Source: Gordius sp. MW1
Lineage: Eukaryota > Nematomorpha > Gordioida > Gordea > Gordiidae
Direction of reading: 5' to 3'
DNA length: 64,000 nt
Assembly: GCA_964036665.1 (NCBI GenBank)
Contig: OZ038531.1
Location: 2,914,001-2,978,000 of the forward strand
Under the pieces are notes generated by a model, which ran no database searches, had not been told where the DNA came from, and worked only from the letters and a program-made list of their open reading frames with translations. A program made the translations under genes and the position numbers. Below are positions 12,791 through 46,212 of the stretch, in pieces. How positions within the stretch are numbered: position 1 is the stretch's first letter; each line of letters starts with the position of its first letter.

Positions 12791-13524
12791 ATATAACCTA
12801 AAAATTTATTATAGATGGTCTAACAGACAGCCAACTATGTAATATATATTTTTAACCTTATAAATGCATATATATTTTTTTATTGGGTTAATATATTTCA
12901 TTTAATTAGATTGTGATTTCATAGAAAACCTAAAATGTAATAGTTAAAAAAATACAGGTATTAGATTCTAATTTACGATACAATATATTGATAAAAACTA
13001 ACACAAATTTCGAAACCTCCTTCAAAGGTATAATCATAGCCCGTTTTGTCTAATTAAATTCAATCTACTATTAAACTATTAAAACACGAATTGTACTTTA
13101 TTAGATGGCGCGCGTAAGTTTATATAATTAGTAAAATTTTCTACGTGTTATAGATATTACACTGCACGTGTGGCAGGGAAATGTCCGATATTTTTAAAAC
13201 GAAAAGGTATTTTAGGAATCTGAAAAGGCTATTTTACCCCTGGCCGCCCTGGGCACCTACGGGTAAAGTTTCGAGCGAATCGGGCGGGTAGTTTCAGAAT
13301 TTAGCCCTTTTTTAAAACTAAAAGGAATTTTTGATTTAATTTTTTTTCTTTAAAATTAAATTAATATTATGTTCTTGTTAATACCATTGATAATTTGACT
13401 TTTTGACCGTCCGCTGGCTACTGACCGATGAAATATATTGATTTTCTAAACATAAAACAGAACTTTATTATTTCATTATCTATATAAATAACATAATAAC
13501 TTCTACTATTTTAATACCAGCATG

Positions 13525-13600
13525 GTGTGACGGGTTATAGCGCACGGCTTGTAAACAGGGTGACCTGGATATCCCGGGTTCAAGCTCGGGAGAGGGCAAA
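13525..13600 (+). repeat. tRNA-like segment (possible SINE head), left arm
   Basis: TGTGACGGGTTATAGCGC resembles a tRNA D-arm/A box. It is followed by an anticodon-like GGCTTGTAAAC and then GGGTTCAAGCTCGGG, a good match to the T-arm/B box. Acceptor pairing is not convincing, so this looks like a pol III SINE head rather than a working tRNA gene. Isolated B-box-like pieces (GGGTTCGAATCCCGGAG) also occur near 11766 and 12092. Confidence 0.45.
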
Positions 13601-13983
13601 TTTTTATTTTTTTTAAAATTAAATTAAAATTTTGTTCTTGTTAATATCATTGATAATATGACTTTTTGATCGTCCGCAGGCTACTGACCAATAGAAAAAA
13701 TGACCATTGGCCAAATAAATCGAAATTTTTTTTCGTTTTTGAATTGGTTAACATTGATAATTACCCTATGCCCTCCCCTACAAGGGTCTATAACTAATTA
13801 TTTTGCATTTAATACCCCCCTATAGGCATTCTCGCCCCTTCCTACCTTTCTCGCCAACAAATTGCATAGCAAATATGCTACGTTTATACGGAGTATAGAT
13901 GAATCGCCCCACCCTTCCCTTCCCCTACTCCCCCTCCCCTTCCCCTACTCCCCTTCCCACGAGGGCCGAAGGCCCGAGTTTTA

Positions 13984-14678
13984 AACCTGCAATTTATTAA
14001 TTAATTTAAATATGCACACTACATTTTTAATAACTGTGGTATCCTCCACCCCCTTACGCCCCACCCTCTTACGTGTGTGTTATACGATAATTTATCTACA
14101 CGCCCCTTCCCTACACACACATACACCCATACGCGTATACTTTTATCATCATGATTCGTAATTTTTAGTCTTTTAAGATATAAATAGTAAAAACTTTTTT
14201 ATTCCTTTAAATTAAATAAATAATAATCATCCCCTCTTCGAGCAATACATAAAAAAATGTTAATACCCGATTTTTTTAGATTATATTTGAATTCGCGATA
14301 TTTCGCGGAATTATTATACGCGCGCGGACATTTAAATAAAAAGTTTCTGAGTATTTTAAAATTATAATTAGCAAAAAAAAATTCCGCCATCCTGACAGAA
14401 CAGAATTTTATTAACTCAATAAATCCTTTATCTCTTTGAGGATTTATTAATAACTTTAAAAATGGAAATTTATTAAATAAAAAAACATAAATTTAATTAT
14501 ACTGAATAATATATTTTATCATCTAATCGGCATAATCATTTATTATTTTTATAAAAAAATTACATATTTTATTAAACAATCATCTAATTAGTCAAGATTT
14601 TACACATTTAAAATTTTTAATAGATTTGCAAAATCTTAATTCTCATTTATCATTATAAACCAAAAATTAAGGATAAAT
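13984..14678. other. AT-rich inner part of the inverted-repeat spacer
   Basis: No gene recognised. The minus-strand 63-codon frame at 14199-14390 has no recognisable features. Confidence 0.4.
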
Positions 14679-14679
14679 A

Positions 14680-16375
14680 TAAGAAATAAATTGAATAAAT
14701 ATTTTATTTTTAGGTCAATAAACAGTCAATTTACCTTCCACACTAGTTAATAAATTTGAACGAACGTCAATAAATTTTTTTTTACTAATTATAGATGGTA
14801 GAGACCTGCACGGCCCGGCCCGCTTGGACGAGCTTCTGCTTAAAAATAAAACAACGGGCTGGGCCTGGACGGGCCGATATATAACGTAACGGGCTCGGGC
14901 CGGGCCTAGTTATGCTTAAGGCCCGTTAAAAGCCCGTTAAAAAATTAATTAGATTTAGTATAAATGAGGTGTTTTTATAATGTTCTAATTTGTAATTATA
15001 TAAGGAAAGTTAAATTTTGTTTCCATCCTAGTTCATTAATTATCAATAGCTCAACCCGCATTATAAATGTTAAAGATAATTTATACACGTGATCCCATGG
15101 GCGGAGCCATTTTAAATTGGAGGGGCGCAGTTTAAAAAGGGCAAAAAATGTTTTTCCATAAGGAATTTTTGAATAAGGGGTGCAGCTGCCCATATTTGCC
15201 TCCCCGTTTATACCCTCTAGCAATATTGAGTGAATTAATTTAATATTATTTAAAATTATTTTTTATTTATATTGCTATGCAATTTATGGGCTCTCTTTTG
15301 GTTATCCGCCCTGTCCATCCTGTCCTGTCCAACTTGTAAATTTTAAATAATTGCCGTGGAAACTTATACGGGATTTTAATGACTGTGGACTTATGCTTCT
15401 GTGAAAGACTATTATTTAGCTGACCGCTGATTGGCTTTACTTTTTTCGACCTCGCCTAAACTCAAATTCCATTATTGTTTTTGTGCCTGACTGATTACCT
15501 TTATTAATAAAGATGAATGCAAAACTGGCTAAATAATTCCCTGCAAATTAATGCTGACCGTGGCTAACTTCTACTTTATCTGACCCCGGCCAAATGCCAA
15601 AATTTATATACTCACTATTATTAACAAATTTAAAAACAAATTCTAAAATTTATTTTCTCAAGTTACTTTTATCATCAATAACCTAATTATTTAAAATGGT
15701 GGAAAAGCAAAGAAGCTAAGATTTTATTAAAACATTATAACCTTAAATAAGGGTTTTAAAAGTTTATTTGGCTTATATGGTTTTATGTATCCTGAAGTGC
15801 CACTCGTAAAATTTTTTTCCCATGTGGGTCGTTTCTTAAAAGATAAAACAACTCGAGTGACTTGGAATTACCAATTTTTTCTTTTATTTTTATCATTTTT
15901 AACACAAACATATTGTTTGCTAGATGGATAAAAAAAGTAAACAAAAAAAAATAAAAAAATTGTACGGGTCCGGGCCGAACTCGGGCTTGTATAAAACTAG
16001 CGGGCCGGGCCCGGGTTCTAAATTTAATATTTTGACGGGCCCGGGCCGAGCCGGGTTTTTAAAATTTTATTACGGGAGGGCCGACTGACCTAAACAGGCC
16101 CGTTGCAGGTCACTAATAGATGGTACCAAATTATTAGACAAACTTTCATCACAGTTTTTACATTTTAATTTATGTATTAAGTAAATGATATTTATTTTAG
16201 AATGCTGTTTTCGATATCTATCCAATTCCATATTTTTAATTTACCTTTAAAATAATCTAATTAGCAAAAATTACAATCATCTATATGATAATTATTTTTC
16301 TTATGGTTATCATCAAAATGGTGGAAAAAATGGTACACATTTTATGTGTTCATGATCTCTATCTAGTCTACGTAT
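14680..16375. mobile_element. Older element split by a hAT-like insertion (14680-14798 plus 16116-16375)
   Basis: Positions 14710-14798 match, in reverse complement, 59330-59395 (GACAGTCAATTTACCTTCC-like and GAACGAACG-like words). Positions 16116-16260 continue the match to 59160-59310 (CAAACTTTCATCACAGTTTTTACATTT). In the 59 kb copy the two halves are contiguous. The right end near 16350-16375 reads CTATCTAGTCTACG, like the family terminus CTATCTAGTCTATG. The 1.3 kb between the halves is a separate hAT-like element. Confidence 0.65.
14799..16115. mobile_element. Non-autonomous hAT-like element with 8-bp target duplication
   Basis: The left end is TAGAGACCTGCACGGCCCG. The right end is CGGGCCtgTTGCAGGTCACTA-like, reading TAGTGACCTGCAACGGGCC on the other strand. 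Both ends are followed inward by GGCCCGG-rich sub-repeats. The identical octamer ATAGATGG flanks it at 14791-14798 and 16116-16123. An 8-bp duplication and short TAG-type inverted termini are hallmarks of the hAT superfamily. The interior (a copy of the CCGTCC dispersed repeat at 15268-15620 and AT-rich DNA) has no transposase, so the element is non-autonomous. Confidence 0.8.
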
Positions 16376-16499
16376 ACTTACGCGATGTTTACCAACACAT
16401 CTCTCACTCCCTTTCCCCTTCTCTTCCACTCCTACCCCCCAATCCAGCCAAGCACACATGAAGGGGGCGGGGGTGGAGGAGAAAGAAAGAAATGAGAGT

Positions 16500-16870
16500 A
16501 GGTAAAGGAAGAGAGTGTACATTATTAAACATCGCGTGCGTAGTATGTAATGTACTCTAATGTATTCCGTTTTCTAATTATAATGGGACTAATTTTGATA
16601 AGGGAAAGGGTTTCACGCAAATGCCAATAAATTTAAATATAGAGGTGAAACAAAAAATTAAAGTAATGTACCTATAAATGAAACTTCAATCTAGGGGAGT
16701 AAATTAATATTTTTCACTATAAATTAAAAATGCCTTGCCAATATAGCCTAAATAAATATTAAAATGGGCGTTTTTTGCATCTTATACCTCGTTTATCTAA
16801 AAAAATGTTTTGGGAAAAAAACTAAAAACAAATTATTATTCAGCTCAAAATCCTCTATCAGAATTATTGC
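16500..16870. repeat. Dispersed repeat, inverted copy of 10500-10870
   Basis: Reverse-complement partner of the 10.5-10.87 kb segment, sharing AAATATAGAGGTGAAACAAAA and ATGGGCGTTTTTTGCA. Its start abuts the right end of the split element ending near 16375. Confidence 0.6.
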
Positions 16871-17399
16871 TCCTAGTGCGGTATGGTTTTTTATAGACCT
16901 GTGTTATTTGTCCATCTCAATTAATGTTTTTGTATTTTAACTCATTGACCATTACATATAAAAAATTCTTACTTTAATACACACTCTAGACTATTATAGA
17001 AAGTCCTATTTTTAAAGTTGTTTCTAGATGGAATAATTATTCATATATAACCACGGGCGGCCCCAACCGAGTCAAAAAGACCTTGTAGTTGATGGTTGAG
17101 CTTGTGTCTTCTCGTGATCCAATAAGCTATCTTTGTTAGCTAAATGCAATTTATGCTTGATACTGGTGGGGTCACCATATTGGCAAGGTTATTGGCGCAG
17201 ACTGAAATTTTTAGGATTTTCATGGAGTGCTAGTGAAATATGCTAAATTTACCTATCAATATGAGTTGGTCTAAACAAAAGTTAAATTCACCAAGTTGCT
17301 GACATTATAAAGAATATTAGGTAGTCAAGCGCCCGAACTTAACATAGTTCCGTCAGGCATGGAAAGCCGGGAAATCAACACTCTCCTATTATATAAAAA

Positions 17400-19530
17400 C
17401 CAAAATGTACACACAACAAAGAAACAGCATGAAAACGAAGCTAGAACGTTCCCCTTAACCAACGCCCGCATTTTTCGCCCGAAATGAGTGGGAAATAAAC
17501 GAAAGCTACCGCTCTCTCCTTAAACGGGACTGTAATGGGCAATGACAAGCAAGTGCAAATAATTGGCTGACGCTCTATGGAGGAGCAATATCGCATGTAT
17601 ACAAGAGACCAAATAGAAGAGCTAAAGGCGAAATATAAAAGTGACGGATACAAATTATATTTTAACGGCACAGAAACGCATAGGAATGGGGTCTATAGTA
17701 TTTTCGGAAGAATTTCAAGGAACATACGCTTCTTGCTCAGATGTGGAAAAAGATTGTTTTCGAATGGAGCTTAAAGATACGCTATCTGAATTAGGTAAAA
17801 ATGGGCTCATAGTTACTGGAGCAGACCACAATGGACACGTGGGTAAATCAAGAGAGGGTGCGAAAGAAATTAGCGTGGTCGGGGTTACGGCTTAAGAAAC
17901 GAAGGCTAGAAATTGCTCGAGCTTTTGACCTAGCTATAGGGATTGTTCAAAAAGAGACATGAACCCCTTATAACCTACAAAAACGGCAGCCGTATTACTG
18001 AGATAGATTTATTTCTCATCAACAGAACGCGCCTAAAGAAAGTTCAAATTGTAAAGATAATACCGACCGAGTGAAATATTGGTTTGTGAACACAACCTGT
18101 TGGTGATGGACTAGATAGTAATGAGCCTTAAAGGGAAAAAGGTACAAAGAGTAGCGGCTATAACAAATGGAGAAACTAAGACAAAACTTTATAATTTTGG
18201 GAAGTTGTAATTAATGCATGCTAAATTTAAGGAATATACATAGTGTTAGAATCAGTTGAATGGTAGAGCCTGCACAATAAGGAAAACGGGACGATCAATA
18301 TTAGGTAAATGCAAGCCCAGTAAGAGAACTCTCAAGGATTTTTGGTGGTGGGATGAAGAAGTGCAAAAATGATAAAAGAAAAGAATGTACAAAGTTTGGT
18401 ATAAAAGCAAGGATAGTAATGATAAAGCATGCTTACCAAATAGCTAAAAGATCGGCTAAAATATACGTAGCAAAGCCAAAAACAACGTGTAGAATGATAT
18501 AAATGAAAAACTAAACTTTAGAGGAGAAAGATCGATCTACAATATCGCAAAGTCAAAGCTCGAAATTCTAATGATTACGTAAAATGCCTGCTAATCAAGG
18601 GACAAAACGGAGAAATACTATAACGAGACAGCCATATATTACAAAGATGGTACGACTATTACTATCATTTATTAATTGAAAAGGGACCCTTAGTCGAAGA
18701 TCGTAACCAAGAAAGTATAATAGTAGAATTATACGAAGCAGAATGGATATCGGAAACGGAGGTCAAAGTTGCTATAGGTAAACTTAAGTCAAGGAAAGCT
18801 CTCGTACTAGAATATACCAATAGCAGGCTTTAATACTGGTGTCCAAATTTTCGTCAAACTTTTATACAAAATTATGAAAACTGGTAAAATTCCTAACGAG
18901 AGGAGGGATAGTTATAGGATACCGATATACAAGATAAAAGGGGATACTCAGGATTGAGGAACCACAGAGGGATAAAATGTATGAGTCACACTTTCAAGGT
19001 GCAGGAACAAGTGATCAATAAACGACGTAGGAGTTTAGTTGAACGAGAAAATTAATTCGAATTTATGACGGAGAAGTCTACAGCAGATGCCCTAGACAGA
19101 GAAAGGGAGGAGGATTTGCACATGTGTTTCCTTGATCTAGAAAAAGCCTTAGTAAAGTCCATAGGGCATTAGTTTGGCGATGATTCATGGAAAACGATGT
19201 GCCAAAATTATAGGTCAGAGCATAAAAGGTGTGCACACGGGAACTATAACGTATATTAGAGCAACACGGGGACTACAAAGGGTGTTGCCAGATCAAGGTT
19301 GAGCTCTTACTACCTTCCTGTTTATAATGAGAATGGATATTATTACAAAGGATTTGGGCAAGGAAGCTCCATGGGCAATGATGTTAGCAGACAATATAAT
19401 GCTCTGTGCAAAAGTGAACCAGATTTGCTAATATTGTACATAGATGGATGAATGCAATAGAAGAAAGTGGTCTCAGTGTAAATCAATAGAAAACAGAATA
19501 CATAGTTTAAATCAGATAAAAAGCTGGAAT
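17400..19530 (+). pseudogene. Decayed RTE-like non-LTR retrotransposon (endonuclease + reverse transcriptase)
   Basis: Several broken frames in order resemble a LINE polyprotein. From about 17577 comes an endonuclease part with SDGYKLYFNGTETHRNG and, in another frame, VTGADHNGHVGKSREG, like the 'GDFNGHVG' endonuclease motif of RTE/'craniofacial development protein 2-like' elements. Around 18330 is FWWWDEEVQK, then YQIAKRSAKIYVAKAK, the linker before RT. From 18740 comes EAEWISETEVKVAIGKLKS and, from about 19060, EFMTEKSTADALDREREED with FLDLEKAL. All of these are reverse-transcriptase landmarks. Many stops and frameshifts (for example after the endonuclease motif at 17895) make it non-functional. 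It lies in the spacer and ends just before the right inverted arm. Confidence 0.75.
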
Positions 19531-19980
19531 GTGCATCCCTTTCTTTTTAGCTAAAATTTAGTTTATTGATATGTAACTGATCATAATATAATAAACTCGG
19601 GCCTTCGGCCTTCGTGGGAAGGGGAGTAGGGGAAGGGGAAGGGGAGTAGAAGAAGGGAAGGGGGGGGGCGACTCATCTATACTCCGTATAAACGTAGCAT
19701 ATTTGCTATGCAATTTATGGGCGAGAAAGGTAGGAAGGGGCGAGAATGCCTATAGGGGGGGGGTATTAAATGCAAAATAATTAGGTATAGACCCTTGTAG
19801 GGGAGGGCATAGGGTAATTATCAATGTTAACCAATTCAAAAACGAAAAAAAATTTCGATTTATTTGGCCAATGGTCATTTTTTCCATTGGTCAGTAGCCT
19901 GCGGACGCAAAAAGTCATATTATCAATGATATTAACAAGAACAAAATATTAATTTAATTAAAAAAAAATAAAAATTTTGC

Positions 19981-20060
19981 CCTCTCCCGAGCTTGAACCC
20001 AGGATATCCTGGTCACCCTGTTTACAAGCCATGCGCTATAACCCGTCACACCATGCTGGT
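19981..20060 (-). repeat. tRNA-like segment (possible SINE head), right arm
   Basis: Reverse-complement counterpart of 13525-13600: CCCGAGCTTGAACCCAGG is the B-box side and GCGCTATAACCCGTCACACC the A-box side. Confidence 0.45.
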
Positions 20061-20779
20061 ATTAAAATAGTAGAAGTTATTATGTTATTTATATAGATAA
20101 TGAATTAATAAAGTTCTGTTTTATGTTTAGAAAATCAATATATTTCATCGGTCAGTAGCCAGCAGACGGTCAAAAAGTCAAATTATCAATGGTATTAACA
20201 AGAACATAATATTAATTTACTTTTAAAGAAAAAAATTAAAATAAAACTTCCTTTTAGGTTTAAAAAAGGGCTAAATTCTGAAACTACCCGCCCGATTCGC
20301 TCGAAACTTTACCCGTAGGTGCCCAGGGCGGCGAGGGGTAAAATAGCCTTTTCAGATTCCTAAAATACCTTTTCGTTTTAAAAATATCGGACATTTCCCG
20401 GCCACACGTGCGGTGTAATATCTATAACACGTAGAAAATTTTACTAATTATTTAAACTTACGCGCGCCATCTAATAAAGTACAATTCGTGTTTTAATAGT
20501 AGTTTGAATTTAATTAGAAAGAACGGGCTATGATTATACCTTTGAAGGAGGTTTCGAATTTTGTGTTAGTTTCTATCAATATATTGTATCGTAAATTAGA
20601 ATCTAATACCTATATTTTTTTAACTATTACTTTTTAGGTTTTCTATGAAATTACAATCTAATTAAATGAAATATATTAACCCAATAAAAAAATATATATG
20701 CATTTATAAGGTTAAAAATATATATTACATAGTTGGCTGTCTGTTAGACCATCTATAATAAATTTTTAGGTTATATATA

Positions 20780-22000
20780 AAATTTGGCCAATGGTCATTT
20801 TTTTTCATTGGTCAGTACCAACAGATACTCTATAAGTCTATGATAGCCAAAAAAAACGGAAAAAAAATTTTTGAGGCTCACTTTGGCCAATGGTCATTTT
20901 TTTCCATTGGTCAGCAGCCAGCGGAGGGCCAAAAAGTCATATTATCAATGGTATTAACAGGAACAATCATAAGAGTCAAAAAAAACGGAAAAAAAATTTC
21001 GATTCACAATTTGGCCAATGGTCATTTTTTTCCATTGGTCAGCAGCCAGGACACGGTAAAAGTGGATATAAATTTATAAGAGTCAAAAAAACGAAAAAAA
21101 ATTTTCGAATAACATTTTGGCCAATGGTCATTTTTTTCCATTGGTCAGCAGCGAAGACACGTTAAAAGTGGATATAAATTCATAATAGTCAAAAAAAAAT
21201 TCGAATCACATTTTGGCCAATGGTCATTTTTTTCCATTGGTCAGCAGCCAGGACACGGTAAAAGTGGATATAAATTCATAATAGTCAAAAAAAACGAAAA
21301 AAATATTTTCCAATCACATTTTGGCCAATGGTCATTTTTTTCCATTGGTCAGCAGCCAGCGGACGGCCAAAAAGTCTTATTATCAATGGTAGTAACAAGA
21401 ACAATCATAAGAGTCAAAAAAACTCCGGGATTCGAACCCACAAACTAGTTAAATTAATTTAAAAAAGTAAAGAGCGTGAGAAGACATTCGATGCGTGACA
21501 AGACATTCGGTGCAAGACACCGAAGAGCGTGTCAATATATAGATAATGAAACATAGACCCTTGTAGGGGAGGGCATAGGGTAATTATCAATGTTAACCAC
21601 TTCAAAAACGAAAAAAAAATTTCGATTTATACTTTGGCCAATGGTCATTTTTTTCATTGGTCAGTAGCCAGCGGACGGCCAAAAGGTCACATTATCAATG
21701 GTATTAACAAGAACAATATATTAATTTAATTTAAAAAATAAATAAAAATTTTGCCCTCTCCGGGATTCGAACCCACATTAGTAAAGGTATAGGGTTTGGT
21801 AAGGGGCACAGGGACCCATATCAGTAAAGGCATAGGCTTTGGTAAGGGGCACAGGGACCCATATCAGTAGAGGCGTAGGCCCTTGTAGGAAAGGGCAAAG
21901 GGTAATTATCAATGTTAACCTATTCAAAGACGAAAAAATACCATAAATTGCATATAGCAATTAAAAATTTCGCTTTATTTGGCCAATGGTCATTTTTTCA
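20780..22000. repeat. Array of CCAATGG/CCATTGG hairpin units (right arm)
   Basis: Mirrored copy of the 11.5-12.8 kb array. Hairpin units are visible near 20783, 20886, 21011, 21118, 21211, 21323, 21632 and 21979, with one more at 19865. Frames at 20840-21165 and 21778-21960 are repeat translations. Confidence 0.85.
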
Positions 22001-22216
22001 TTGGTCAGTAGCCAGCGGATGGTCAAAAATTCATATTATCAATGGTATTAACAAGAACAAAATATTAATTTAATTTAAAAAAATTAAATAAAAAATTCGT
22101 CCTCTCCCTGGCTTGAACCCGGGATATCCAGGTCATAAAGCTGGCGCCAATAACTTGGTGGACGGACAACGGACAACGGACAACCAAAAACGAGCCCATA
22201 AATTGCATAGCAATTA

Positions 22217-29764: not shown

Positions 29765-31488
29765 CAGTGATGCGGAAAAATCGAGAAAAATCTCGGTCTC
29801 GTCTCGTCTCGAAAAACCGAGACAAGACGAGACGAGAATTTGAAAAATGGAGTCGAGATCGAGACGAGAATTTTGTTGTCGAGACGAGAAGAGACGAGAT
29901 TTTTTCGGCGAGATCTCGACTTTTTATTAATCGTTAGATTTTAGTAAATTATTGTGTATTTTAATTTGCATGATGTATATTTAAGGTATTAAGTGTAAAT
30001 CAATATGTATGGAATATATTTGTTAAAAAAATCCCTTTTTGCAAAAAATTTAAAATTTGGCAATCATTTACCTAAGGATAGTTGACCGGGTATGTGAATA
30101 ATTTAATAAATAATTATCACATATTTGTAACCATAGCAATATTAAATATTACAAAATTTTAGGCTTAGAATGAGTTCTGATGGAATAGTAAATATTACTA
30201 AAACATATTTGAATTTCCCAGTTACTCTTCCTGCATGATGCGGTAATTATAAATTGGTGGTCAATCAGTTAATAATTAATCAAGTTAAGCTAAGATGGCT
30301 CAAGATTTTTGAGCACTTAACTATTCAAAACTACAATGTATTTAATGACACCATAATAGATTAAGTATTTAATCATGAATTTTCTAGAAGTTTTTATGTT
30401 TCAACTAATAGTACACCTCCCAAATTTTTGAACCTTAAAAAGACATTATATGAATACATAGTTGTTTCATGTCCATTACTTTTCACATTATAAGCTGGCA
30501 AGTGCATTCATTTACTATAATTTCTATAATTTTGCAATATAAAATAAAAACACGAATCTAAACTATATCGATATTCACTGTGTTTGTCAACTATAAATAG
30601 ACTTAGAAAGTTATAAGTTCGCTTATTTAGTTAAGAATCGGAAGGTAATTATTTGGAATATAATTTGATTATAGTGAATTTTGTCATACATTTAAATATG
30701 TGCACTTTAATTTAAAGTTTAAACCCTATGAGCTTAATCCTATAATAATGCTGCTTTTATTGTTGTTTTTACGACGTTTAATATGTGCAACTAGTTATCA
30801 ATTCTGTAAATAATAATATTATCATTAAAAGTCATTCGCACTTTGTGGTTTATAACGCTTTAATAAACATGCAATAAACACTATAGGCTATAATTGATGA
30901 TGGTAATATCAATGGACTTAAACATTGCCTTAAATATGTTTAGGTCTACTTTGAAGCTTTAGCCAGGGTTAATAAAGGATCTTAATTTCCTCATTTATGC
31001 AACTAAGTCAACTATAAGCTAGCTTATAACTTTCCAAGTCAATTTATAGTTGACAAACACAGTGAATTTGATATAAATGTTATAATTTGCTAGAACAAAA
31101 AAATTTAATCTTCTATACTTTAAATTTATTTATAGTTTTAAATAGCCTGCACTTTCCCTAGAAAATATTATCTTTATGAATTAATTCATATCTTTAAATT
31201 GTCAATGAGATGTCGTGTTCCGCTAAATCTTTTTAAAGTTTGTGTATTAAAGTTTTTCAAAGAATAAAAAAGTTTGCCATTTGGATTTTTAACACTTATT
31301 TAATATTTGTAATAAAACATAAAAAAAATTTATTCTGTAAATATTTTTTAAAGTCGAGACGAGACGGGAATTCTCGTCGAGGACTGAGATTTTTATTGAC
31401 CGAGACGAGACGAGATCGAGATTTTCATAATCACTCCCGGGACGAGATTTTGTTTTCGAGACCGAGACGAGACGAGATCAAAACACTA
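29765..31488. mobile_element. GAGAC-repeat hAT-like element, copy A
   Basis: Left end CAGTGATGCGGAAAAATCGAG, then dense GAGACGAG/CTCGTCTC repeats with inverted symmetry. About 1.4 kb of AT-rich interior follows, then again GAGACGAGA repeats ending ATCAAAACACTA. The interior is shared with copies B (41623-43065) and C (23470-24919). No transposase frame exists. The 114-codon frame at 31240 is a translation of the right end. Confidence 0.75.
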
Positions 31489-33172
31489 ATCGCTCCCTTT
31501 CGGTCTTTTTTACAATTTTTTCCACTTACATATCAAAGTGTGCTCAACGTTACTTTTAGCACACGAGTCAACAGAAAAATATGAAAACCCAGGTTAACAA
31601 CTCAAAACGCATTTTAATACATAATTTGGAGAAATTATATTTTAAGTCGCGTTTTGTTTGAGGCTTTTATTAGTGATCAATTGAATATGTGGCTAAACAA
31701 AATATACATTTATAATATTTGCCAATGTTTATTTAATATAAGTGATGAATAATTATGTTAGTTTTTTGCCATAAATAACATTTTTTATCATTTTTTTGAT
31801 GTGGGGTGGAAAAGGAAATTTTTGGTTTTTTTAATTCTCGTTAATTCAAATTTTAACTTTATTAGTGATGGGTTAGGTTAGGATGTTTAAAAAATAAAAT
31901 CAGACTTAAAATTATAACCAAAGGATGAGTCAAAAAATTCAAGATTATAGTTAAATTTTGATTTTAAAATGTGCCAAATTTTTATTATTTGAATAAATGA
32001 AATTATTAAATAGATGATTACCATAAACAATTCAAATAATTAAATGCCTAAAATTTCTAAAATTATCGAAAATTAATTCTAAAGTCTGGTAAAGAGTCCG
32101 GGTTATTATTATAGTGGTTGACTAATTAAATTGTAAATATTGATTTCCAATCATTAAGATTTTGAATCTTAGTTCATTTGTTTGGGCGTAATGCCTAAAC
32201 TTTAGCATATTTGCAAAATTTTAGTTTTCCCATGCAACTAAATCGCTAAAATTCATAATTAAGGGATTTTTAATGCCCTTTCTCATTATTTTTTTCAATA
32301 TAATTTCATAAAAAAATTATAGAAATTAGGGAATGAGCAGAGTCTTACAAAATTGCTGTTTATCAGCTAGATCCGAATGCTTTATTTAAAGATACATGAT
32401 AAGTAATTGAGTTTAATTTTAAACGACAATTTAACGTTAATTTTAAAATTTAAATTAGATTAACTTTGAACTAAAAAATGTATGATTTTTTTATAAACGA
32501 TTGTGAGGTTAGGATATTACAAAACTGCTATGTAACAATTTATAAATTTATGAGAATAAAATTGAACGCAGAGATGGTTAAACGCAATTAGCATCACGAG
32601 TGGTGCCATGTGTCCAAAATAACAATTAAAAAACTATAACCCGACTTTATAAAGTTAACTAAATACATTTACTTGGAGTATTGAAATTTTGAATCCTATT
32701 TTACATAATAATTAATTATAGAAAAACTTTTAAAACATAGTTTAAGTATTTATCACAAGTAAAAAAACGTTATTTTCACATTTATACTTAATGCCGTGGT
32801 GCGAAAAGTGAAAGAAAACTCTTAATTTGCTATGTATTGATCGAGTTGAAGTTGGTGGGAATAGCACGAGAAAACATAAGTGATAATAATTCATAATAAC
32901 ATAAAGAGACAATAATTAAATTAAGCTTCCTTTCCCACTCCCTGATTGCCTTTACTCGGTGTAATTATTGATTAAATATTTATCATCAATAATAAAAAGT
33001 TGTAAAAATTGCTGCAATCATTATTTCGGGCATATTTTTACCAAACTGCGGTCATTAATCATCTTTTGCAAACAAAATTGAGAAAATATTCCTACGAGAA
33101 GATTTCCTTAGAGATGTGCTAAGTCAAGGTGAATTTTTCTTTTTTCTTCATTAAAACTTTTCCCCCAAAAAT
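31489..33172. other. AT-rich region upstream of the AChBP-like gene
   Basis: No other gene seen. The last 60 bases before the start codon include a pyrimidine-rich stretch (TTTTTCTTTTTTCTTC) that could belong to the 5' UTR or promoter. I see no convincing TATA box. Confidence 0.3.
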
Positions 33173-36100
33173 ATGAGGATTTTTTTGTGCTTGGTTCCAT
33201 TATTGGCCACGGTTCTTGTCCAAAACGTCTGCAGTGCACCTAGTAAGTGTCCAATTTAATTTTTTGTTATTTTGAAATTTATATATTACTAACAGCCAAT
33301 GAAACTTCTGGTCAATTAATAAGTCCGAATCCCTCATCTTATTATGAATGGGAAACTAAATTGCGTCATGACCTTACCAAGGCATACGATACCCAGGTTA
33401 TTCCATTGAAAGAATTAGGCAAACCGATTATAGTTCGAGTTGGTCTAGCCTTAAATACACTTTTCAAAATGGTAAGTTTTTTCATTCTCCTTATAATTTT
33501 AAAATTTGATTTTTTTTTCTATTAATTAATTTACTCTATATTTTCAAACAGTGCCCAGATACCCATAAATTTTCTGGAAACTACTTTCTTAGAATGGTAT
33601 GTATGCCTTTATTAAGAAATAATATTTTAATTAGTTTGCTTTTTAAAACGTTTTTTTATATAGAATTTTGAATTAAAACATTGTTATTATAGGAATGGGA
33701 AGATGAAAGACTGAAATGGGATCCAACTAAATATGGTGGCATCAAAACGTCTTATTCATTTGATATGAATGATATATGGATTCCGGATGTGACCCTTTAT
33801 TATGGGTAGATATCCTTTATTTTATAAAAATTTGCAAAATCACTTTAAAATTTTTAAAAATAAGTGCACAAAAATTGTGGTTTTAAATAGTTTATCATTT
33901 TTAATTTGCATTGTTTAATCCCTGATTATGGACAATAAATAAAATTTTTAAAAATTAACCTTTATTTATACGTTATAAAACCTAATATTTTGTCTAAAAA
34001 TGTATAAATATGTCTTCTTGTTAAATTAATTGACTGCTAATTTTTTTGTTATAATAATACTGGTAACAAAATCTCGAAACATATGGCATCCCGAAAGTGT
34101 GTGTAGTGTACTCATGTTAAATGAGCGCATCATTTCTTAACGAAATTAATGATCTTCCAATATTAATATTGGTAAAATGTGGTGGAGTTTTGAATATAGC
34201 ACGCCGGAGCATAAACTTTAATTAATGACTAGGGTCCCCTTAAATTATAACAGCGCATCAATTATTCTTTTTGTAAAAGTAAAGCCACCTAATTTTTGTC
34301 TTTTATTTAAATATGAATATTACTTTGAAAAACAACTATCATCCTCAGATTCACTGAAAACGCTTAAAACCATGGGCGTAGCCATGATTTTAATTATAGG
34401 GGGCAATCAATATGATTCAGGGAGGGCAAAACAATCATTTTTTAAATTTTAGCCATAATTATATTAAATTTTAAAGTTTTTTTGGATTTAGGGGGGGGGG
34501 CAGCCCTCCCCCCTCCCTCCCCTTTGGCTACGCTTATTTTTATATTTTATGTTAGAAGTCTTAATGAAAAATCAATTTTAGTATAAAAAAATAATCCTGT
34601 GACGTTGTTTTTATAGAACAAAGGCTATATACATGTAAAACTTTCAAGAAAACGCATTTATTTTATAATTAACGAAGCAGCTCAGGACACGTTGATATTT
34701 TTGTATAAAGGTACAACAAGTTAAAAACTAATCTAACAAATGGTTCTTACTTCATCTCAAATTTTTAGCTTTTATAGATTTTTTAACTATAATTGAATAG
34801 CCAAGCAGCCCTTAACACGTTGTGAATACTAATTCGTTTTCAATAATATGATCAAACACTTCACACGTATTATTAAATCCTCGTACCCTTTAGTGATGTA
34901 GTGAGGCGCCATTATAATGTTTTATCTTTTTTTAGAATATTCTTGAATCTAAGTTATTTAAACTTTAGAAAACTTTTCATTTTGTATTTAATTGACTTTG
35001 ATGTCTATTGCTCTAATTTACCTGGCATATGAACCATGCATTGTAATGGACAATCCTCTATAATTTGTATAATTGTTAAAGTTGCAAAATATTTTGGCTT
35101 TATCTGAGCAGTAGCCATAACCTTATGCATACAACCTGTTATTTTATGACTTCCTTTCGAAACCATTTCTACAATAGAATTCTCCATTGTCGTCATGTAT
35201 ACAGATTCTATAAATGGGATTATTTGCTTTTTGTCTAATAATTCAAGGATGACCCATCTTCAGGGGCGTAGACAAGGGGGTAGAAAAACGGATAGTTTAC
35301 CCCCTTGGCCAAAAATTAATTTGTTTTATACGTTTTGGCACTTAATAAAACCAAATTTGGAAAACTACCAGACCGATTTGGCTCAAAGTTTCACAGTTTA
35401 TTCCCCATACTCCGGAGCATGTTTTAAGATTTGTTCGAGCCAAATCGGTTCAGTAGTTTTCGAGGGGTCACGTTTTTTTGTTTTATACGTTGTTTTATAC
35501 GTTTTGGCACTTAATAAAACCAAATTTGGATAACTACCAGACCGATTTGGCTCAAAATTTCAGAGTTTATTCCCCATACTCCGGAGCATGTTTTAAGATT
35601 TGTTTGAGTCAAATCGGGCCAGTAGTTTTCGAAGGGTCACGTTTTTTTGTTTTATACGTTTTGGCAATTAATAAAGACGTCATATGCTATGCAGTATAAT
35701 ATATGAAGCTTAAATGTTTTATGGCTGCATAAAAATTTTCTTTCATATTAAATCAGGTCAGACCCGTTACCATATGAATGAACCAGAGGAATATAAACAT
35801 TAGATTCTACAAAGTATTTTATGTCATGGTTATGCGTTTATTTTGTAGAAGAAACTTAAATTACATTTAAAACTCAGTGACATTTCTTTAAGGCTTATGC
35901 TAAACTTTACCATAAATTATTTGGGTTATATCTGTACTGCGTTATGAATATTTTATGTTTTTAGTCAATTATTCATAAAGTGTAAGTCTACAGCCATTAG
36001 AAACACTTAAAAAGTGATACTGCAAAATGCAAAAATAAATGGCAAAACAACGTTTGCCGGGTTCATCTAGTCTTATATATAAAAATGAAACTATGTGTGT

Positions 36101-38886
36101 ATGCCGCCACCAATTTTGAAAAATACCAGACCGATTTGGCTCAAAATTTCATAGTTTATTCCTGACACTCCGGAGCATGTTTTAAGATTTGTTTGAGCCA
36201 AATCGGTCCAGTAGTTTTCGAGAACAGTTTAGCGCCTGATTCTCAACTTTTTTGGAAAACTACCAATCCGATTTGGCTCAAAATTTCACAGTTTATTCCT
36301 GACACTCCGGAGCATGTTTTAAGATTGTTCGAGCCAAATGCAAATCGGTCCAGTAGTTTTCGAGTATTCGTACGCCTTGCACTGTTTACGGAAATAGAAC
36401 AATAGAAGTAGAACATATAGACATCAAACTTTATTTTTACTTCAATAACCGCTTTATCATCATATATGCCCTAAAATTCCAACATAATTTAATACACCCG
36501 GGTAAATGGCAAAACAACGTTTGCCGGGTTCATCTAGTTAATAATATTATATTAGTAAATAGAAAAATAAGCCCTTCGGGCGTAGCTGGGGGCTTCGTCC
36601 CCAGACCCCCATCTCCTCGGGGGCTCCGCCTTATAAATAATTTATTGAAATAAAAATGTTTTTAAAAAATTGGAAAATTTCTACCCCCTTGAGAAAATCC
36701 TGGCTACGCCCCTGCCCATCTTGCAAATCCGGAAAATAATTTTAGAAAAACTTTTACGACATAAACATAAGAGCGAATTTTATAATTAATAATGTAAGAG
36801 TGTTTTACATAGGCGTAGCCAAGGGGTGGCACGGAGGGCCGACTGCTCCCCACTAAATTTAAAAATTTGCCAAAATTTATTAAAATTAAGGCCAAAATTT
36901 TTAAAAATGATTATTTTACCCCTCCCTAAATCAATATTACCCCCCCCCCCCTCTAATCCTAATGCTGGCTACGCCTATAATGTTTTACATAATAAATTGC
37001 CACTTCTTTACTCAAGCTGTTACGACTTAAATGAAGAAAAATTTAGTTTGATTAATTGGTTCCTAGGTGGTACAAAGCTCCAAGCCCATGTTTTTACAAT
37101 TAGGGGATGATGGATGTCAAATTGGTTCTGAACTGATGGAACTTGATTAAGTCAATAAGTTTCAATCGTTTTTATTATTATGTTTTCCCTTGGCGCCTAC
37201 ATCTATTTTTTAATCGTTGAACTGGCGATAAATGGCTTCGTTTTATGTAATTTAACTTTCTTTAAATTATGTTGTTAAAAACATTAAATCTTCTTCATAC
37301 AATTTCTTTAAACTTTGGTCATCATGTAACACCTATTTGCGATGCAAGAAAGTTGTATAGATTCAATTATTTATATTAGTCTCTCACAAAAGACGGGTTC
37401 TTAAAAAACTTTATATTGAAGAAGTTTAAATTTTAAGCTACATAGCGCTATTGTCTTTGTTAAAATACTTTAAATTGTTTCAATTAAGTCTAAGCTTGTA
37501 AAAGAGTTGAATAGTTTCGTCTCAAAGCTTTAATGTAGAAAATTGGAACTTTATTATGATTATCTAGATAGGTAGGTTTATTGGAGTGGGTAGTAAGACA
37601 AAATAAGTAAATTAAATGCGCAAATATAATATTTACATGCTTTTCCGCCATGTTCATTATATTGTTTAATATATTAAAGTAGACTTTTAATAAATTTGTT
37701 ATTTTTGAGTACTTTTATAAAATTAATGTTAGATTCAATTTTTCACCAACAAAATTTAAAAATAGTAAATTAAGAAACTGTACATGTTAAAATTTTATTA
37801 CGATTTACTAATCGTTAGATAGTCTATTTATGATACATTTGTGTTAGAGTTCAGCAAATCAGCTTAATGCATAATATTTAAAATATGTTAACTTTTATTA
37901 TACCATAATACATATTAATTTAGTAAACCTAACCTATAAATATTTATAGTTTTTCAGATATCCCTGGCAAAATCAGTCGCGGACCTTATACAATGGTAAA
38001 TTCGGATGGAAAAGTAACCTGGGTACCACAAGTCACCCTTAAAGTCCATTGCCAACCAATTTTGCCAACTGGCAATGAAACCAACAAGGATGAAGATCAT
38101 AGCAAGCATCACCATCACTCGCACCATATGGATGGCGATGAGTTTGCTGACTTGAAGAAAGGCGTTAAAGGAGGGAAGGACGAGAATGAAAAAAATGAAA
38201 AAGGAGAAGGGAAAAAGAAAGCTCGGAAAAGTGAAGAAAGCGAGAGTGAAGATAGTGAAGATGAGGAGGAAGAAGAAGAGGACGAGAAGAAAAAAGGAAA
38301 AGGGAAAAAGGATGAAAAGAAGAAAGATGAGAAGAAAAGAGGTAAAGATGGAAAAGATGAAGGTTCTTGTGGAAATAAGAGTCATCAAGGATGCCACCAC
38401 AACAAGCACGGTATGAGCGCTCACCGCTTTGACAATTTGATCGAGCATTGCGACATTAAATTTGGTTCGTGGATATACGATACCAAGGCACTCGTGTTGG
38501 AACCTTTCGCCGGTGATAAGGGCATAGATATGACCATAAGGCAGTACGAACACAAAAAAAAGGGTGGCGATAAAAACGTCAATGCAAAAGTGATGAGAGC
38601 TAATCAAGGTGACAAGAATGAGTCTTCCAATGTAATTTTGACACCAAGGCACGACATGTCGTGGCAAGTTTTGGAAAATAAGGTCAAGACGCATCAATTG
38701 AAGTATCCATGTTGCCCGGGAGATTATGCCGACATAACTTTTCATTTAAAATTGAAGAAATTACACGAACACAGTCACAAACATCAAGGAGAAGAGGATA
38801 AGAAAAAAGTGGAGGATAATAAGTTAGAAGCCAAAACGGGTGAAAGCGCGAAGGAAGGAAATGAAAACACCACCAAAAAATCCTAA
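33173..38886 (+). CDS. Secreted acetylcholine-binding-protein-like Cys-loop domain with giant Cys-loop insertion
   Basis: Exons 33173-33242, 33296-33471, 33552-33596, 33693-33805 and 37950-38886 join in phase with GT-AG introns to 446 residues. Residues 1-22 look like a signal peptide (MRIFLCLVPLLATVL). The nicotinic ligand-binding fold follows: loop D Trp99 (MEWEDERLKW), WIPDVTLYY with loop A Tyr133, SDGKVTWVP, Cys-loop first Cys169, second Cys302, KFGSWIYD with loop B Trp309, and loop C Tyr387, vicinal Cys389-390 and Tyr394 before DITFHLKLKK. The canonical 13-residue Cys-loop is expanded to about 132 residues. It has a His cluster (184-194), an acidic run (230-246), Lys-rich runs and two extra Cys (275, 283). 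After the fold comes a 41-residue charged tail and a stop, with no membrane helices, so it should be soluble and secreted like molluscan/annelid AChBP. The 45-bp third exon is typical of nicotinic receptor genes. Intron 4 (4.1 kb) is full of transposons. Ligand is unknown. Confidence 0.88.
34372..34535. mobile_element. GGGCGTAGCCA-type MITE in intron 4
   Basis: Starts CATGGGCGTAGCCATG and ends CCTTTGGCTACGCTTA, with a run of G and CCCTCCC blocks inside. It lies within intron 4 of the AChBP-like gene. The overlapping 75-codon frame is incidental. Confidence 0.7.
35261..36714. mobile_element. hAT-like element with perfect 8-bp target duplication, in intron 4
   Basis: The left end is CAGGGGCGTAGACAAGGGGG and the right end is CCTGGCTACGCCCCTG, an inverted pair. 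CCCATCTT occurs immediately outside both ends (35253-35260 and 36715-36722). The interior has a repeated block of about 130-180 bp (ACCAGACCGATTTGGCTC ... ACTCCGGAGCATG ... CAGTAGTTTTCGAG), twice at 35340-35640 and twice at 36110-36370, and a nested Helitron-like element. No transposase is encoded. The frames at 35195-36405 are repeat translations. Confidence 0.8.
36071..36537 (+). mobile_element. Helitron-like non-autonomous element nested in the hAT element
   Basis: Begins TCTTATATATAAAAATGAAAC, the typical 5' TC terminus of Helitrons. It ends GTTTGCCGGGTTCATCTAG, a CTAG end preceded by a stem formed by ACCCGGGTAAA and TTTGCCGGGT. The same 3' end (GGCAAAACAACGTTTGCCGGGTTCATCTAG, given here as two overlapping parts) also occurs at 36041-36070, just before the 5' TC, so two 3' ends lie in tandem. 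No target duplication is expected for this class. Confidence 0.6.
36808..36978. mobile_element. GGGCGTAGCCA-type MITE with flanking direct repeat, intron 4
   Basis: Ends AGGCGTAGCCAAGGGG and GCTGGCTACGCCTATAA. The decamer TGTTTTACAT lies directly before the left end and again after the right end, an apparent target duplication. Confidence 0.75.
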
Positions 38887-38985
38887 TTACTTAATTTCTC
38901 ATAATAATATGTGTTAATTATTCATGACATTAGCACTTAAATTTTACTATGATATTGCATATTTTGAATAGTGTTTACTACATAC

Positions 38986-38991
38986 AATAAA
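38986..38991 (+). promoter_or_regulatory. Polyadenylation signal for the AChBP-like gene
   Basis: AATAAA lies 100 bp after the stop codon, in AT-rich 3' sequence and before a GTGTGTC stretch. This supports the mRNA ending here without further exons for membrane segments. Confidence 0.55.
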
Positions 38992-39171
38992 TTTAGGTGT
39001 GTCTAACAAAATTTTAATTTTGAAAATGTAGCATTGAGTTTATAGTGAGGGTGAAGCAATGGGAACATTATATTTCATGTGATCTCTTAAACTAATGCAG
39101 CAGTGTCTCATCTCTAATTTATAAGTTAATGTCAATCCATTTCAATAGTTTTAAGGACTTTTGGTATAAGG

Positions 39172-40308
39172 TAGAGAACTGCAAAGTCACTTTTTTTCAA
39201 CCCGAACCCGACCCGACCCGAAAGCATTTTCGAATTTTCTACCCGGACCCGACCCGACCCGAAATAATTTTCAAATTTTCTACCCGAACCCGACCCGACC
39301 CGAAATCATTTTCAAATTTTCTACCCGAACCCGACCCGACCCGAAAGCACTTTAAAAACTTTAACCCGAACCCGACCCGACCCGAAAATATATTAAAACA
39401 AATTACTTTCGAGCGCGAAAATTGCGGTGTGTAAAATTAAATCGACAAATAAAAGTGCTATTAATGAAACAAATTGTAACCATAGATTTTGTCTAACTAA
39501 TGTGTTATAGATTTTAGAGGCAACTATTTAATATCAATCATTGTTATTAAAAATATGGCTAATTATTATATATTTATTATAATATTAATGTTTTTTGTTG
39601 GTGTTTTAAATTAAATTTTCACATGCAATTAATTTTTAATATTAATTTTATGCTTTAGATATAATGTCTTAGGGTAAAATACCTAGATGTTGCACTTGAT
39701 TCAAAATATTTTATTAATAAACAAGTTGTCATACCATATTAATTTAATTTGCAAATGAAACATTTATAAAATTATAACTTACTTTTAAGTTGGCTTTTGA
39801 ATATGTATTAAATGTAATTTAAATTAACGATGAGGATTACCTAAAACTTCATGGTTAACACTAAAAAAATTTAAAATATAACTTTATTGAAATAATTTAC
39901 CTTTTAATAGTCAAATTAAAAACAGGAGTAATTTATGTAGTTTGAATTATTGATGAGAATTAGCTAGCACTTCAGAGTTCGGAGTTTTAAAATAAAAAAA
40001 ATAGGAAGAGAAGAATTAATTAAATGAATGATCCAAATTAGTTGTACATTTTGATATTTAAAAACACTCTTTGCTTAGCAATTAACATTAATTAAAAAAA
40101 TAGGTCTCGCGTGTTTTTACAATGTACCTTGGACCCGACTCTATAAATTTGACCCGACCCGACCCGAAAGCATTTAAAAATTTTCAACCCGAACCCGACC
40201 CGAAAGCATTTTCAAATTTTCTACCCGGACCCAACCCGACCCGAAATCATTTTCAAATTTTCTACCCGAACCCGACCCGACCTCTCGGGTCACCCGTGCA
40301 GTTCTCTA
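39172..40308. mobile_element. Non-autonomous hAT-like element with CCCGA-repeat ends
   Basis: The left end is TAGAGAACTGCAAAGTCAC and the right end CCGTGCAGTTCTCTA, an inverted pair. The octamer GTATAAGG flanks it on both sides (39164-39171 and 40309-40316). Just inside each end are units of about 41 bp built on CCCGAACCCGACCCGACCCG and a TTTTCAAATTTTC spacer (39196-39390 and 40145-40285). The centre is AT-rich and non-coding. The frames at 39129 and 40122 translate the repeats. Confidence 0.85.
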
Positions 40309-41622
40309 GTATAAGGACATCAGCAAAGCTCATGTTTGAAGAGCCTTGCGTAAAACTTTTAACTATTAAAACGCGGGGCCTGATATTAAACTGCTGATAA
40401 TGTTTATGATACCCAAATATACATAGGCTTAACTCGACCAAAAGTGTTTTGCTTTGAATGGTCTAAAGGAATTCAGATTGCACTCTTATCAAAATAAAGT
40501 CCCCTTAAAAATTTAAAGACTATTTTTAAGGTATCCTGTTCAAATTTTAATTTAAATTTTGATTTTATATAAATCAAGGAAATCGAATGTATTTTTTAGA
40601 AATTTTATTTTTGCTATGAGGTTTAGTAACAGGCATGTAAGGGACGAAAGCGATAACAATCTTATTTCTATAATTAGTGACCGATTAACGCCTTTATATT
40701 TGGCTTAAATGGTATAAGACCGAGATAAAACTTTATAATATATTATTTAACATTAAAATTCATTTAGTATGCTTATGTGTCATAGAATGCTAAAACGATG
40801 CGGGTGTGATCCAGATTTATTTTAATTTGAAACAATATATTAAAACTATTAAAATATTTTTCAAGGTGACATTATTTTCTCAAGTTTTTAAAATAAATTT
40901 CCTCGATTTAATTTAGCTATCTAACAAATTAGCTAAGAATTTTTTTACATCAAGCAGAAAATTATCATGCAAATTGTTAAATCCATTACTATTTTAATAC
41001 ATGGCTCTATGTCAACTCATTAATCCAATGTATTTTCGCATGTGTCATACACAATTATTTGGAAATAAGCATCAATTAGTTAAAAAATTAGCTAATAAAA
41101 GTTTACATAATTTATTAAAATTATCACATTTGAGGACGGAGTATTTAGGGCAGCTTTATAAATTTAGGTTGTTTAGACAATTATGTTATTAACAAATCCC
41201 CGAACCAAGTATCGAAAAAGTTGTCTCTAGCTAATTCAAGAATAAGGTTATAAATAGAAACCTTTTTATTGCTTATTAAAAAAACATAATTCGGTTAAAA
41301 TAGTAAATCATTTGAGTCGTTGCCAGCTTTTCATATGTTTGACACTTCATATATCTTAAATATTGTCTAATTTTGAATAAAGTTGACAACAAGGCTTTAA
41401 CAAGAGAGTTATGTTCTTTTAACTAACTAGCGTGCATTTGACTAACACAAAAGTTGCACTGAAGTTATGCATGCATAATGGAATAGTAAGTGCTTATAAA
41501 AACCAATGTATCGAGTCTTACATTTAAATGATATAAATTACATTGAATAATATTTTTATGAATTTACAAGCCAATATTATTAGCTGCTCTATGGCTTTTT
41601 AAAGGAGAAAAAGAGAAACTCC
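40309..41622. other. AT-rich intergenic sequence, nothing recognised
   Basis: The 63-codon frame at 41001 is not recognisable and has no splice support. Confidence 0.35.
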
Positions 41623-43065
41623 TAGTGATGCGGAAAAACCGAGAAAAATCTCGGTCTCGTCACGTCTCGTCTCGAAAAACCGAGACGAGACGTGACGAGA
41701 CGAGAATTTGAAAAATGGAGTCGAGATCGAGACGAGAATTTTGATGTCGAGACGAGACACTTTTTTTCGGCGAGATCTCGACTTTTTATTGATCGTTAGA
41801 TTTTAGTAGATTATTGTGTCTTTTGATTTGCAAGATTTACATTTAAGGTATTAAGTGTAAATAAATAGATAATGGAATATATTTGATGTTAAAAAAATTT
41901 CGAAGTGTTCTACCTGTTATATATTTTTGCAAACAATTTAAAATTTAGCAATAATTTTTTTTAGTATGGTTAACTTTTAGGGTATGTGAATAATTGTGTA
42001 ATATATTTATCACATATTTATATTCATAGCATTATTAAATATTAAAAAAGTTTAGGCTTAGAATGAGTTCTGATAGAATAGTAAATTTTACTAAAGCATA
42101 TTTGAATTTCGCAGTTACTCATCCTGCTTGATGTGTTAATTATAAATTTGAACTATAATAAGACATTATGTGAATACATAGTTTTGTCACATGCATTATT
42201 TTTCACATTACAAGCTGGGTTGGCAGGTGCATTCAAATTTACTATAATTTCTATAAATGTGCAATATAAAATAAATACACGAACCTATAATGATTTTTGT
42301 CACAAATTTAAATACGTGCACTTTAATTTAAAGTTTAAAACCTTAAGTTCTTAATCCTATAATAATGCTGCTTTTATTGTTGTTTTTTTAACGTATTAAT
42401 ATGTACAACTAGTTGATCACTCGCACTTTGTGGTTTATAAGGCTATAGTGAACATGCAATAACCACTATGGGCTATAAATGATGTTGGTAATATCAATGG
42501 ACTTAAACGTTGCCTTAAATATTTTAAGGTCTTCTTTTAAGCTTTAGCCAGGGTTAATAACGGGTCTCAATTTGCTCAATTGTGCAACTAAGCCAACTAT
42601 AAGCGAACTTATAATTTTCTCAGTCTATTTAGAGTTGACAAACACAGTGAATTTGATACAAATGTTATAGTTTGCTAACCAATAAAAGTTAATTTTCTAT
42701 TTATTTTTAGTTTGCACTTTCCAAAGAAATATTTTCGTTTATAAATTAATTAATATCTTTATATTGTCAATGAGATGTCGTGTCTAAATCTTTAAAAAGT
42801 TTGTGTATTAAAGATTTTTTAAATATAAAAGTTTGCCAATAGGATTTTTTAACACTTATTTGATATTTTTAATAAAACAGAGAGATTTTTATTCCGTGTG
42901 TATTTTTTTTAAAAAGTCGAGACAAGACGAGAATTCTCGTCGAAACGAGACGAGACCGAGATTTTTCTAGAACGAAATGAGACGAGATCGAGATTTTAAT
43001 AATCGCTCCCGAGACAAGACGAGATTTTGTTTTCGAGACCGAGATGAGACGAGATCGCAACACTA
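41623..43065. mobile_element. GAGAC-repeat hAT-like element, copy B
   Basis: Starts TAGTGATGCGGAAAAACCGAG and ends GAGATCGCAACACTA. GAAACTCC precedes and CTAACTCC follows, a 6-of-8 imperfect target duplication. GAGACGAG palindromes occupy both ends, and the AT-rich interior is shared with copies A and C. The interior has no transposase frame. Confidence 0.78.
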
Positions 43066-43719
43066 CTAACTCCTGTTAAATAAATATTATTAGTTAAAAT
43101 ATACATAAATTGTGAAGATGAATTAAATAAGTAAAAAAGTTAATTCTCGTGAATATTTATGAATTATGTTAATCCCGACTTTCTATCTTATAAAAAAAGT
43201 TCGCGCTTCATGGGATATTTGTTGCACTTTTTTTATAATTTTTATGGCTTGAGGCTAAAGGTTGTTAGAGTATTATTGTAAAAAAACAATAAGGAACAGA
43301 ATTGTGAAGTTTCTACTATTTTGAAATTTTTAGTGCTAGCTGAAAGAGGATTCTTGTTTTGGTCAGGTAGGGCGATATCGGTGTAGCTATAGTCCGAAGA
43401 TAAACAGATTTCCCAAGCAGCGGGATTAGCCATCGGATATTTTGTTATATTGATCTAGACTTGAATTACAATTATTATAATATAATAAATCTGAGTCAAT
43501 TACTGGCAAAAGTAATAGATTATTAAAGTTTATATAAAAAGTAAAGATGTGCATTTAGAAGTATAGGGATATTTTCCTACCTAAATTTTTATTATTTATC
43601 TTATTTTAATTTGGTTTATATCTTGCTTCACCAATACAAACATTATACATATGAATCAAGTATTCTTTGTGGATCAACTTGCTGCTTAAACACGTTTACC
43701 TTCGGTTGGTTTTTAACAC
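43066..43719. other. Upstream region of SURF4
   Basis: AT-rich. The 63-codon minus frame at 43242-43433 is unsupported. No core promoter motif could be picked out. Confidence 0.3.

Positions 43720-46212
<2,493 letters not shown>

Follow-up and report, generated by a model that had tools for sequence, protein, structure and literature searches.

A putative AChBP-type protein with a 132-residue Cys-loop and its channel-less paralogues in the same genome

The Cys-loop gives a receptor superfamily its name, and in these receptors it is the lever that carries the binding signal to the pore. The length of the loop hardly varies (C-X13-C) because it links ligand binding to the pore, and C(X13)C is the form given for the receptors in the passage cited (PMC7017565).

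AChBPs (those of Lymnaea, Aplysia, Biomphalaria, Capitella and Cupiennius) are secreted nicotinic ligand-binding domains (LBDs) without a membrane domain, the arrangement proposed here for a further protein. The AChBP of the spider Cupiennius has 246 residues and a Cys-loop of 16, a loop called the most atypical in the section of the paper cited, where it is also stated that Cys-loop length varies among AChBPs and that the role of the loop must be other than gating (PMC4569296). Given that this length is described in print as variable, a short Cys-loop was not treated as defining an AChBP. In the Biomphalaria AChBP the loop has 12 residues, between C126 and C139 (PMC3423370), and the protein is reported to assemble into 60-mers (PMC3423370, PMC5379566). 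For ACCBP, a mollusc protein of the same family, binding to amorphous calcium carbonate is reported (PMC3423370, PMC5379566), and in the parts of these papers drawn on here, mineral binding of this type is ascribed to a glycan-rich moiety (PMC3423370) or to an N-terminal disordered region (PMC5379566). A Tribolium survey reports, in the passage cited, insertions in loops F and C, and refers to a 75-residue stretch in loop C of Drosophila GRD (PMC2064938).

The gene described here (the giant-loop gene) occupies positions 33173..38886 on the + strand of the window, the whole 64,000-nucleotide stretch of DNA that was analysed, which is located on a 24.0 Mb contig in an assembly of 12 contigs and 211.8 Mb. 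Its predicted product has a Cys-loop of 132 residues and is read, with a probability of about one half, as an AChBP-type, putatively secreted and channel-less pentamer with a charged skirt that would hold matrix, mineral or metal ions.

Gene model and ligand-binding domain

Five exons were spliced into a single open frame of 446 amino acids plus stop, which reproduced both the reconstruction and the agonist-site positions of an earlier note on this DNA. The features of the model are given below, with loop names assigned from PDB alignments and known structure.

33173..33242, + strand: exon 1, start codon and putative hydrophobic leader (MRIFLCLVPLLATVLVQNVCSAP)
33296..33471, + strand: exon 2, N-terminal part of the LBD
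33552..33596, + strand: exon 3, 45 bp, likewise 45 bp in both C6 paralogues
33693..33805, + strand: exon 4, 113 bp, codes loop D Trp99 and loop A Tyr133
33806..37949, + strand: intron 4, phase 2, acceptor TAG at 37947-37949
37950..38886, + strand: exon 5, loop E region, Cys-loop, loop B, loop F, loop C, tail and stop codon
38704..38727, + strand: loop C, Tyr387, vicinal Cys389-Cys390 and Tyr394, motif YPCCPGDY
38884-38886, + strand: stop codon, end of the frame after the LBD and tail
38986..38991, + strand: AATAAA, possible polyadenylation signal

The leader in exon 1 passed a simple hydrophobicity and donor scan with thresholds of our own, and the signal peptide is putative. Exon 2 gave weak matches to paralogue exons (E 0.001-0.005), and the 113 bp length of exon 4 is common to the C6 and C1 paralogues. 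Donors are GTAAGT for introns 1 and 2, GTATGT for intron 3 and GTAGAT for intron 4. Exon 5 sits within an open frame of 317 codons; when window 30001-45000 was shuffled 200 times by mononucleotide, frames reached at most 140 codons.

The site and phase of intron 4 are matched by an intron in three paralogues (two on C6, one on C1), all with TAG acceptors, and the junction codon is GG|G or GG|A in the paralogues and GG|T in the giant-loop gene. With the TAG acceptor, 10 residues separate the junction Gly from GPYT, the same number as in the C1 paralogue. A competing CAG acceptor, ending at 37957 (8 nt downstream), has 11 pyrimidines in 15 positions vs 9 in 15 for the TAG of the model. This site (TTTTTCAG) was set aside, since its use destroys the reading frame and the phase backed by the paralogues is the other one. 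The five-exon model with the TAG acceptor is accordingly taken as right on the strength of these comparisons, and the gene looks intact for a putative secreted protein.

Within intron 4, about 1,457 bases (window 35261-36714) are 98.9% identical to a stretch in the region of the C1 paralogue (L051 5011-6467); both places harbour a recently moved dispersed repeat. Just 3' of the gene, a unit of ~41 bp containing ACCCG motifs forms arrays at window 39194-39387 and 40151-40282. The nearest recognised downstream gene is represented by an exon for the C-terminal part of the SURF4 cargo receptor at window 45736-46212 (+; Pfam SURF4, E 1.3e-61, profile 116-267 of 267). Upstream, nested long inverted repeats with tandem repeats inside them span about 10.5 kb (window 11416-22091); the longest arms, 11551-12056 and 21493-21998, are 506 nt and 99% complementary, and the structure looks like a foldback-type mobile element. 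An Rfam search of the window gave no match.

Neur_chan_LBD (E 3.3e-31) was the sole Pfam family reported for the protein at E up to 1. The search of the PDB matched 230 distinct sequences at E up to 0.001, and the best 60 of these were nicotinic receptors, AChBPs and chimeras of both, with muscle-type receptor alpha subunits at the top (71 bits) and AChBPs lower (about 56 bits). That receptor LBDs outscore AChBPs counts against an AChBP-type reading; one C6 paralogue behaves otherwise, its best natural PDB match being the Capitella AChBP (82 bits, behind one chimera). The agonist-site residues are present: W99 (loop D), Y133 (loop A), W309 (loop B), and Y387, C389-C390 and Y394.

The presumed mature chain contains seven cysteines (83, 169, 275, 283, 302, 389 and 390), and since this number is odd, one or more may be unpaired or form a bond between subunits. 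The first N-glycosylation sequon in the Cys-loop is at N177, 8 residues past Cys169; in three paralogues a sequon starts 5 residues past the first Cys of the loop. The Cys-loop of Biomphalaria AChBP2 also carries one, N130, in the section cited (PMC3423370). As far as sequons can indicate, these positions fit passage through the secretory pathway.

A genome-wide search for Neur_chan_memb gave 14 matches at eight loci, none of them near the giant-loop gene or its channel-less copies on C6 and C1. The four transmembrane segments of a nicotinic receptor subunit were thus found in the giant-loop gene neither by Pfam nor by genome search, and an overlooked, strongly divergent transmembrane region is unlikely. 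The stop codon and the lack of a nearby match bear out the earlier note, which had reported no membrane helices, and they make unlikely the outcome that it named as refuting, a joining of exon 5 to exons coding TM1-TM4. Its description of the protein as AChBP-like also held, given the nicotinic LBD, the loop-C Cys pair with aromatics, and a stop that follows the last LBD strand and a tail.

The Cys-loop insertion and two further expansions

The expanded regions were located as follows.

38053..38448, + strand: Cys-loop interior, 132 residues between Cys169 (codon 38050) and Cys302 (codon 38449)
38098..38127, + strand: His cluster HSKHHHHSHH, residues 185-194
38230..38286, + strand: run of D, E and S, 19 residues (229-247)
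38368..38394, + strand: extra Cys275 and Cys283 with His neighbours, inside the Cys-loop
38539..38631, + strand: 31 extra residues near loop F (about 332-362), without counterpart in the paralogues by alignment
38764..38883, + strand: charged C-terminal tail, 40 residues after the last strand, where a receptor would enter TM1

The loop length reported earlier was counted exactly between its two cysteines, and the His cluster and the two additional Cys were located. A 17-residue acidic run had also been reported; the longest run of D and E only is 10 residues, and that of D, E and S is 19. The interior contains 27 K, 3 R, 14 D and 23 E, so that 67 of its 132 residues are charged (51% K/R/D/E), together with 13 H and 8% I/L/V/F/M/W/Y. 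Given that the net charge is just -7, the insertion is mixed-charge rather than a plain polyanion.

Tandem Repeats Finder at a score of 50 reported no array within the insertion, and codon usage for Lys, Glu, Asp, Gly and His is mixed; for these two reasons it does not appear to be a fresh microsatellite. When 369 of its 396 bases (38071-38439) were compared with the genome by a search that skips simple repeats, only the self-match was returned, and derivation from another locus was set aside for those bases, as no second copy was found. Viral contigs gave two pattern matches, but no relative of the first 180 residues.

The Cys-loop is one of three expansions relative to the paralogues; the stretch near loop F and the tail, which is absent from the paralogues by alignment, were missing from the earlier note. 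Loop F is placed tentatively in this protein, from the known fold. In that fold, the Cys-loop, the loop F area and the C-terminus are at or near the membrane-facing side, and loop F reaches the C-face side of the pentamer as well. In the Biomphalaria paper, the C-face of the AChBP pentamer is defined, in the passage cited, by the C-termini and Cys-loops (PMC3423370).

Paralogues with no detected channel domain

The LBD family has 33 matches in the genome; some of these loci are receptors and others are without a detected channel domain. There are three channel-less copies on C6, two of them readable and one broken, and four in tandem on C1. From this, the giant-loop gene, which the earlier note treated without its relatives, is placed by sequence as one of a small family of channel-less paralogues. 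The C6 copies at 3.16 and 3.24 Mb are open across the four exons read, and a search for exon 1 in the C6 copies did not find it. The copy at C6:3.20 Mb is broken: its exon 2 carries a frame change, and the stretch read contained no match to exon 5. The four C1 genes (C1:10.09-10.21 Mb; C1:10093979-10205662) are about 29-35 kb apart and identical over 3,108 bases around exon 5, their last exon, with 149 to 541 differences in two other stretches by ungapped comparison, which suggests either recent amplification or assembly duplication. Exon 3 was not found in the one C1 copy that was read.

Cys-loop interiors in the three paralogues read are 32 and 32 residues (C6) and 21 residues (C1). Among the eight receptor loci, the loop was readable whole at five and has 13 residues in all five; of the three left out, one has its loop divided by an intron and the others were missed by a pattern requiring an FPFD-type motif. 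Like the giant-loop protein, the receptor subunits at C8:27.07, C4:5.15 and C6:6.54 Mb have the loop-C Cys pair, with 30-31% identity over the compared part of the LBD. They differ from it in having transmembrane matches and, in the two of them that are readable, a 13-residue Cys-loop with an FPFD motif.

A tree of the exon 4-5 region separated the giant-loop gene, the C1 copy and the two C6 copies from five receptors with a support of 100. The tree was built from nine sequences, three of the receptor sequences having hand-joined junctions, and most of the insertion was omitted; because it is small, unrooted and partly hand-joined, it shows a split and not an origin. Identity of the giant-loop gene is 38.5-39.9% to the paralogues and 23-31% to the receptors.

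The readable C6 pair differs at 95 nucleotides in 239 codons, with dN 0.070 and dS 0.531 by NG86 (0.065 and 0.747 by YN00) and a dN/dS of about 0.1. This pair is under purifying selection, a result that bears on the pair and not directly on the giant-loop gene.

Elsewhere in the assembly, contig C12 (14.8 kb) was observed to bear mitochondrial COI (1,251 bases taken, stop-free in table 5). Nuclear COI copies were observed at C8:2829490-2830827 and at places on C1, C3, C4 and C5. The C8 copy scores 408 bits vs 410 bits for the gene on the mitochondrial contig, and this closeness suggests a recent transfer.

Proposed role and comparison with known proteins

In the favoured reading, an LBD that no longer gates a pore would have released its Cys-loop from the length constraint. 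The product is likely to be secreted and to form a pentamer, probably a homopentamer with sites for an acetylcholine-like ligand at its subunit interfaces. Together, the Cys-loop, the loop F stretch and the C-terminus would make a charged, His-rich skirt of about 200 residues per subunit, probably disordered as judged from composition, so that a pentamer would bear roughly 1,000 mixed-charge residues (5 x 203) in place of a membrane domain. Such a skirt may grip charged extracellular partners (matrix, mineral or metal ions), although binding of metal, polyanion or matrix by the insertion is a guess made by analogy. It is improbable, though conceivable, that the former coupling face is now an effector, through which the bound ligand could regulate how firmly metal, mineral or matrix is gripped.

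The main rival to this reading is that the insertion is functionless, tolerated drift, a low-complexity growth of K, E and H in a freed surface loop of an ordinary AChBP-type ligand buffer. The paralogue loops of 21 and 32 residues would then be graded relaxation, and the insertion is indeed mixed-charge, low-complexity and without a Pfam family; the printed statement that AChBP loop length is variable and its role other than gating, in the section cited, points the same way (PMC4569296). Against drift, charged sequence was gained at three separate places in the giant-loop gene but not in the paralogues, and the insertion holds no tandem DNA array. We regard drift as possible but somewhat unlikely.

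A protein secreted into saliva, gland or gut as a decoy or carrier, where it would take up acetylcholine or plant alkaloids and be retained by the skirt, would agree with the retained agonist site and the tandem copies of the paralogue on C1, and is considered a long shot.

Finally, the gene might not be expressed as modelled, either because an unrecognised intron shortens the loop or because it is a recent pseudogene. In-frame GT..AG pairs of at least 60 nt with both ends inside the Cys-loop number 41, and a GTRAG donor occurs in 0 of the 41. The best candidate intron by pyrimidines, 38164-38445, has 8 of 15 before its AG but was rejected with a donor of GTTAAA; the acceptors used in the model score 8 to 10 of 15, and the acceptor side alone does not exclude this candidate. 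The donors are therefore the main argument that a hidden intron is unlikely, and with it the splicing out of 38053-38448 that the earlier note had named as a refuting result. One C6 copy is broken, and intron 4 ends at an AG with a poorer pyrimidine tract than its competitor, but no stop interrupts the frame, the residues of the agonist site are retained, and splice site and phase are common to the paralogues, which together with the donor count makes expression in another form, or decay, very doubtful.

A single genome with 13 residues in its readable receptors vs 21, 32 and 132 in their channel-less relatives offers a natural experiment on constraint. The 132-residue loop also marks a site at which a large insertion may be tolerated in a pentameric LBD, and the gene offers a testable case of an AChBP-type protein that would act on charged extracellular material rather than at synapses.

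A search of the open-access literature for long or inserted Cys-loops found no paper. The earlier note had stated that nothing like this loop was known; this is tempered by the paralogues (21 and 32), the spider AChBP (16) and, in the text cited from the survey, the 75 residues of GRD at loop C. Drosophila GRD, a GABA-like channel subunit, likewise has a long insertion in an extracellular loop of the LBD according to that text. Its insertion is at loop C of a channel subunit, whereas that of the giant-loop protein is in the Cys-loop of a channel-less one. ACCBP, as described in the passages cited, is a secreted AChBP-family protein with a charged extracellular solid as its partner, and its likeness to the giant-loop protein is by analogy. 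Its binding is not described there as passing through a Cys-loop insertion, unlike that of the proposed skirt. The AChBP Cys-loops in the cases compared, as far as the cited passages give them, have 12 to 16 residues, and that of the giant-loop protein has 132 with both Cys kept. Given the paralogue loops, the spider AChBP and the GRD insertion, the giant loop is thus best described as the extreme of a trend.
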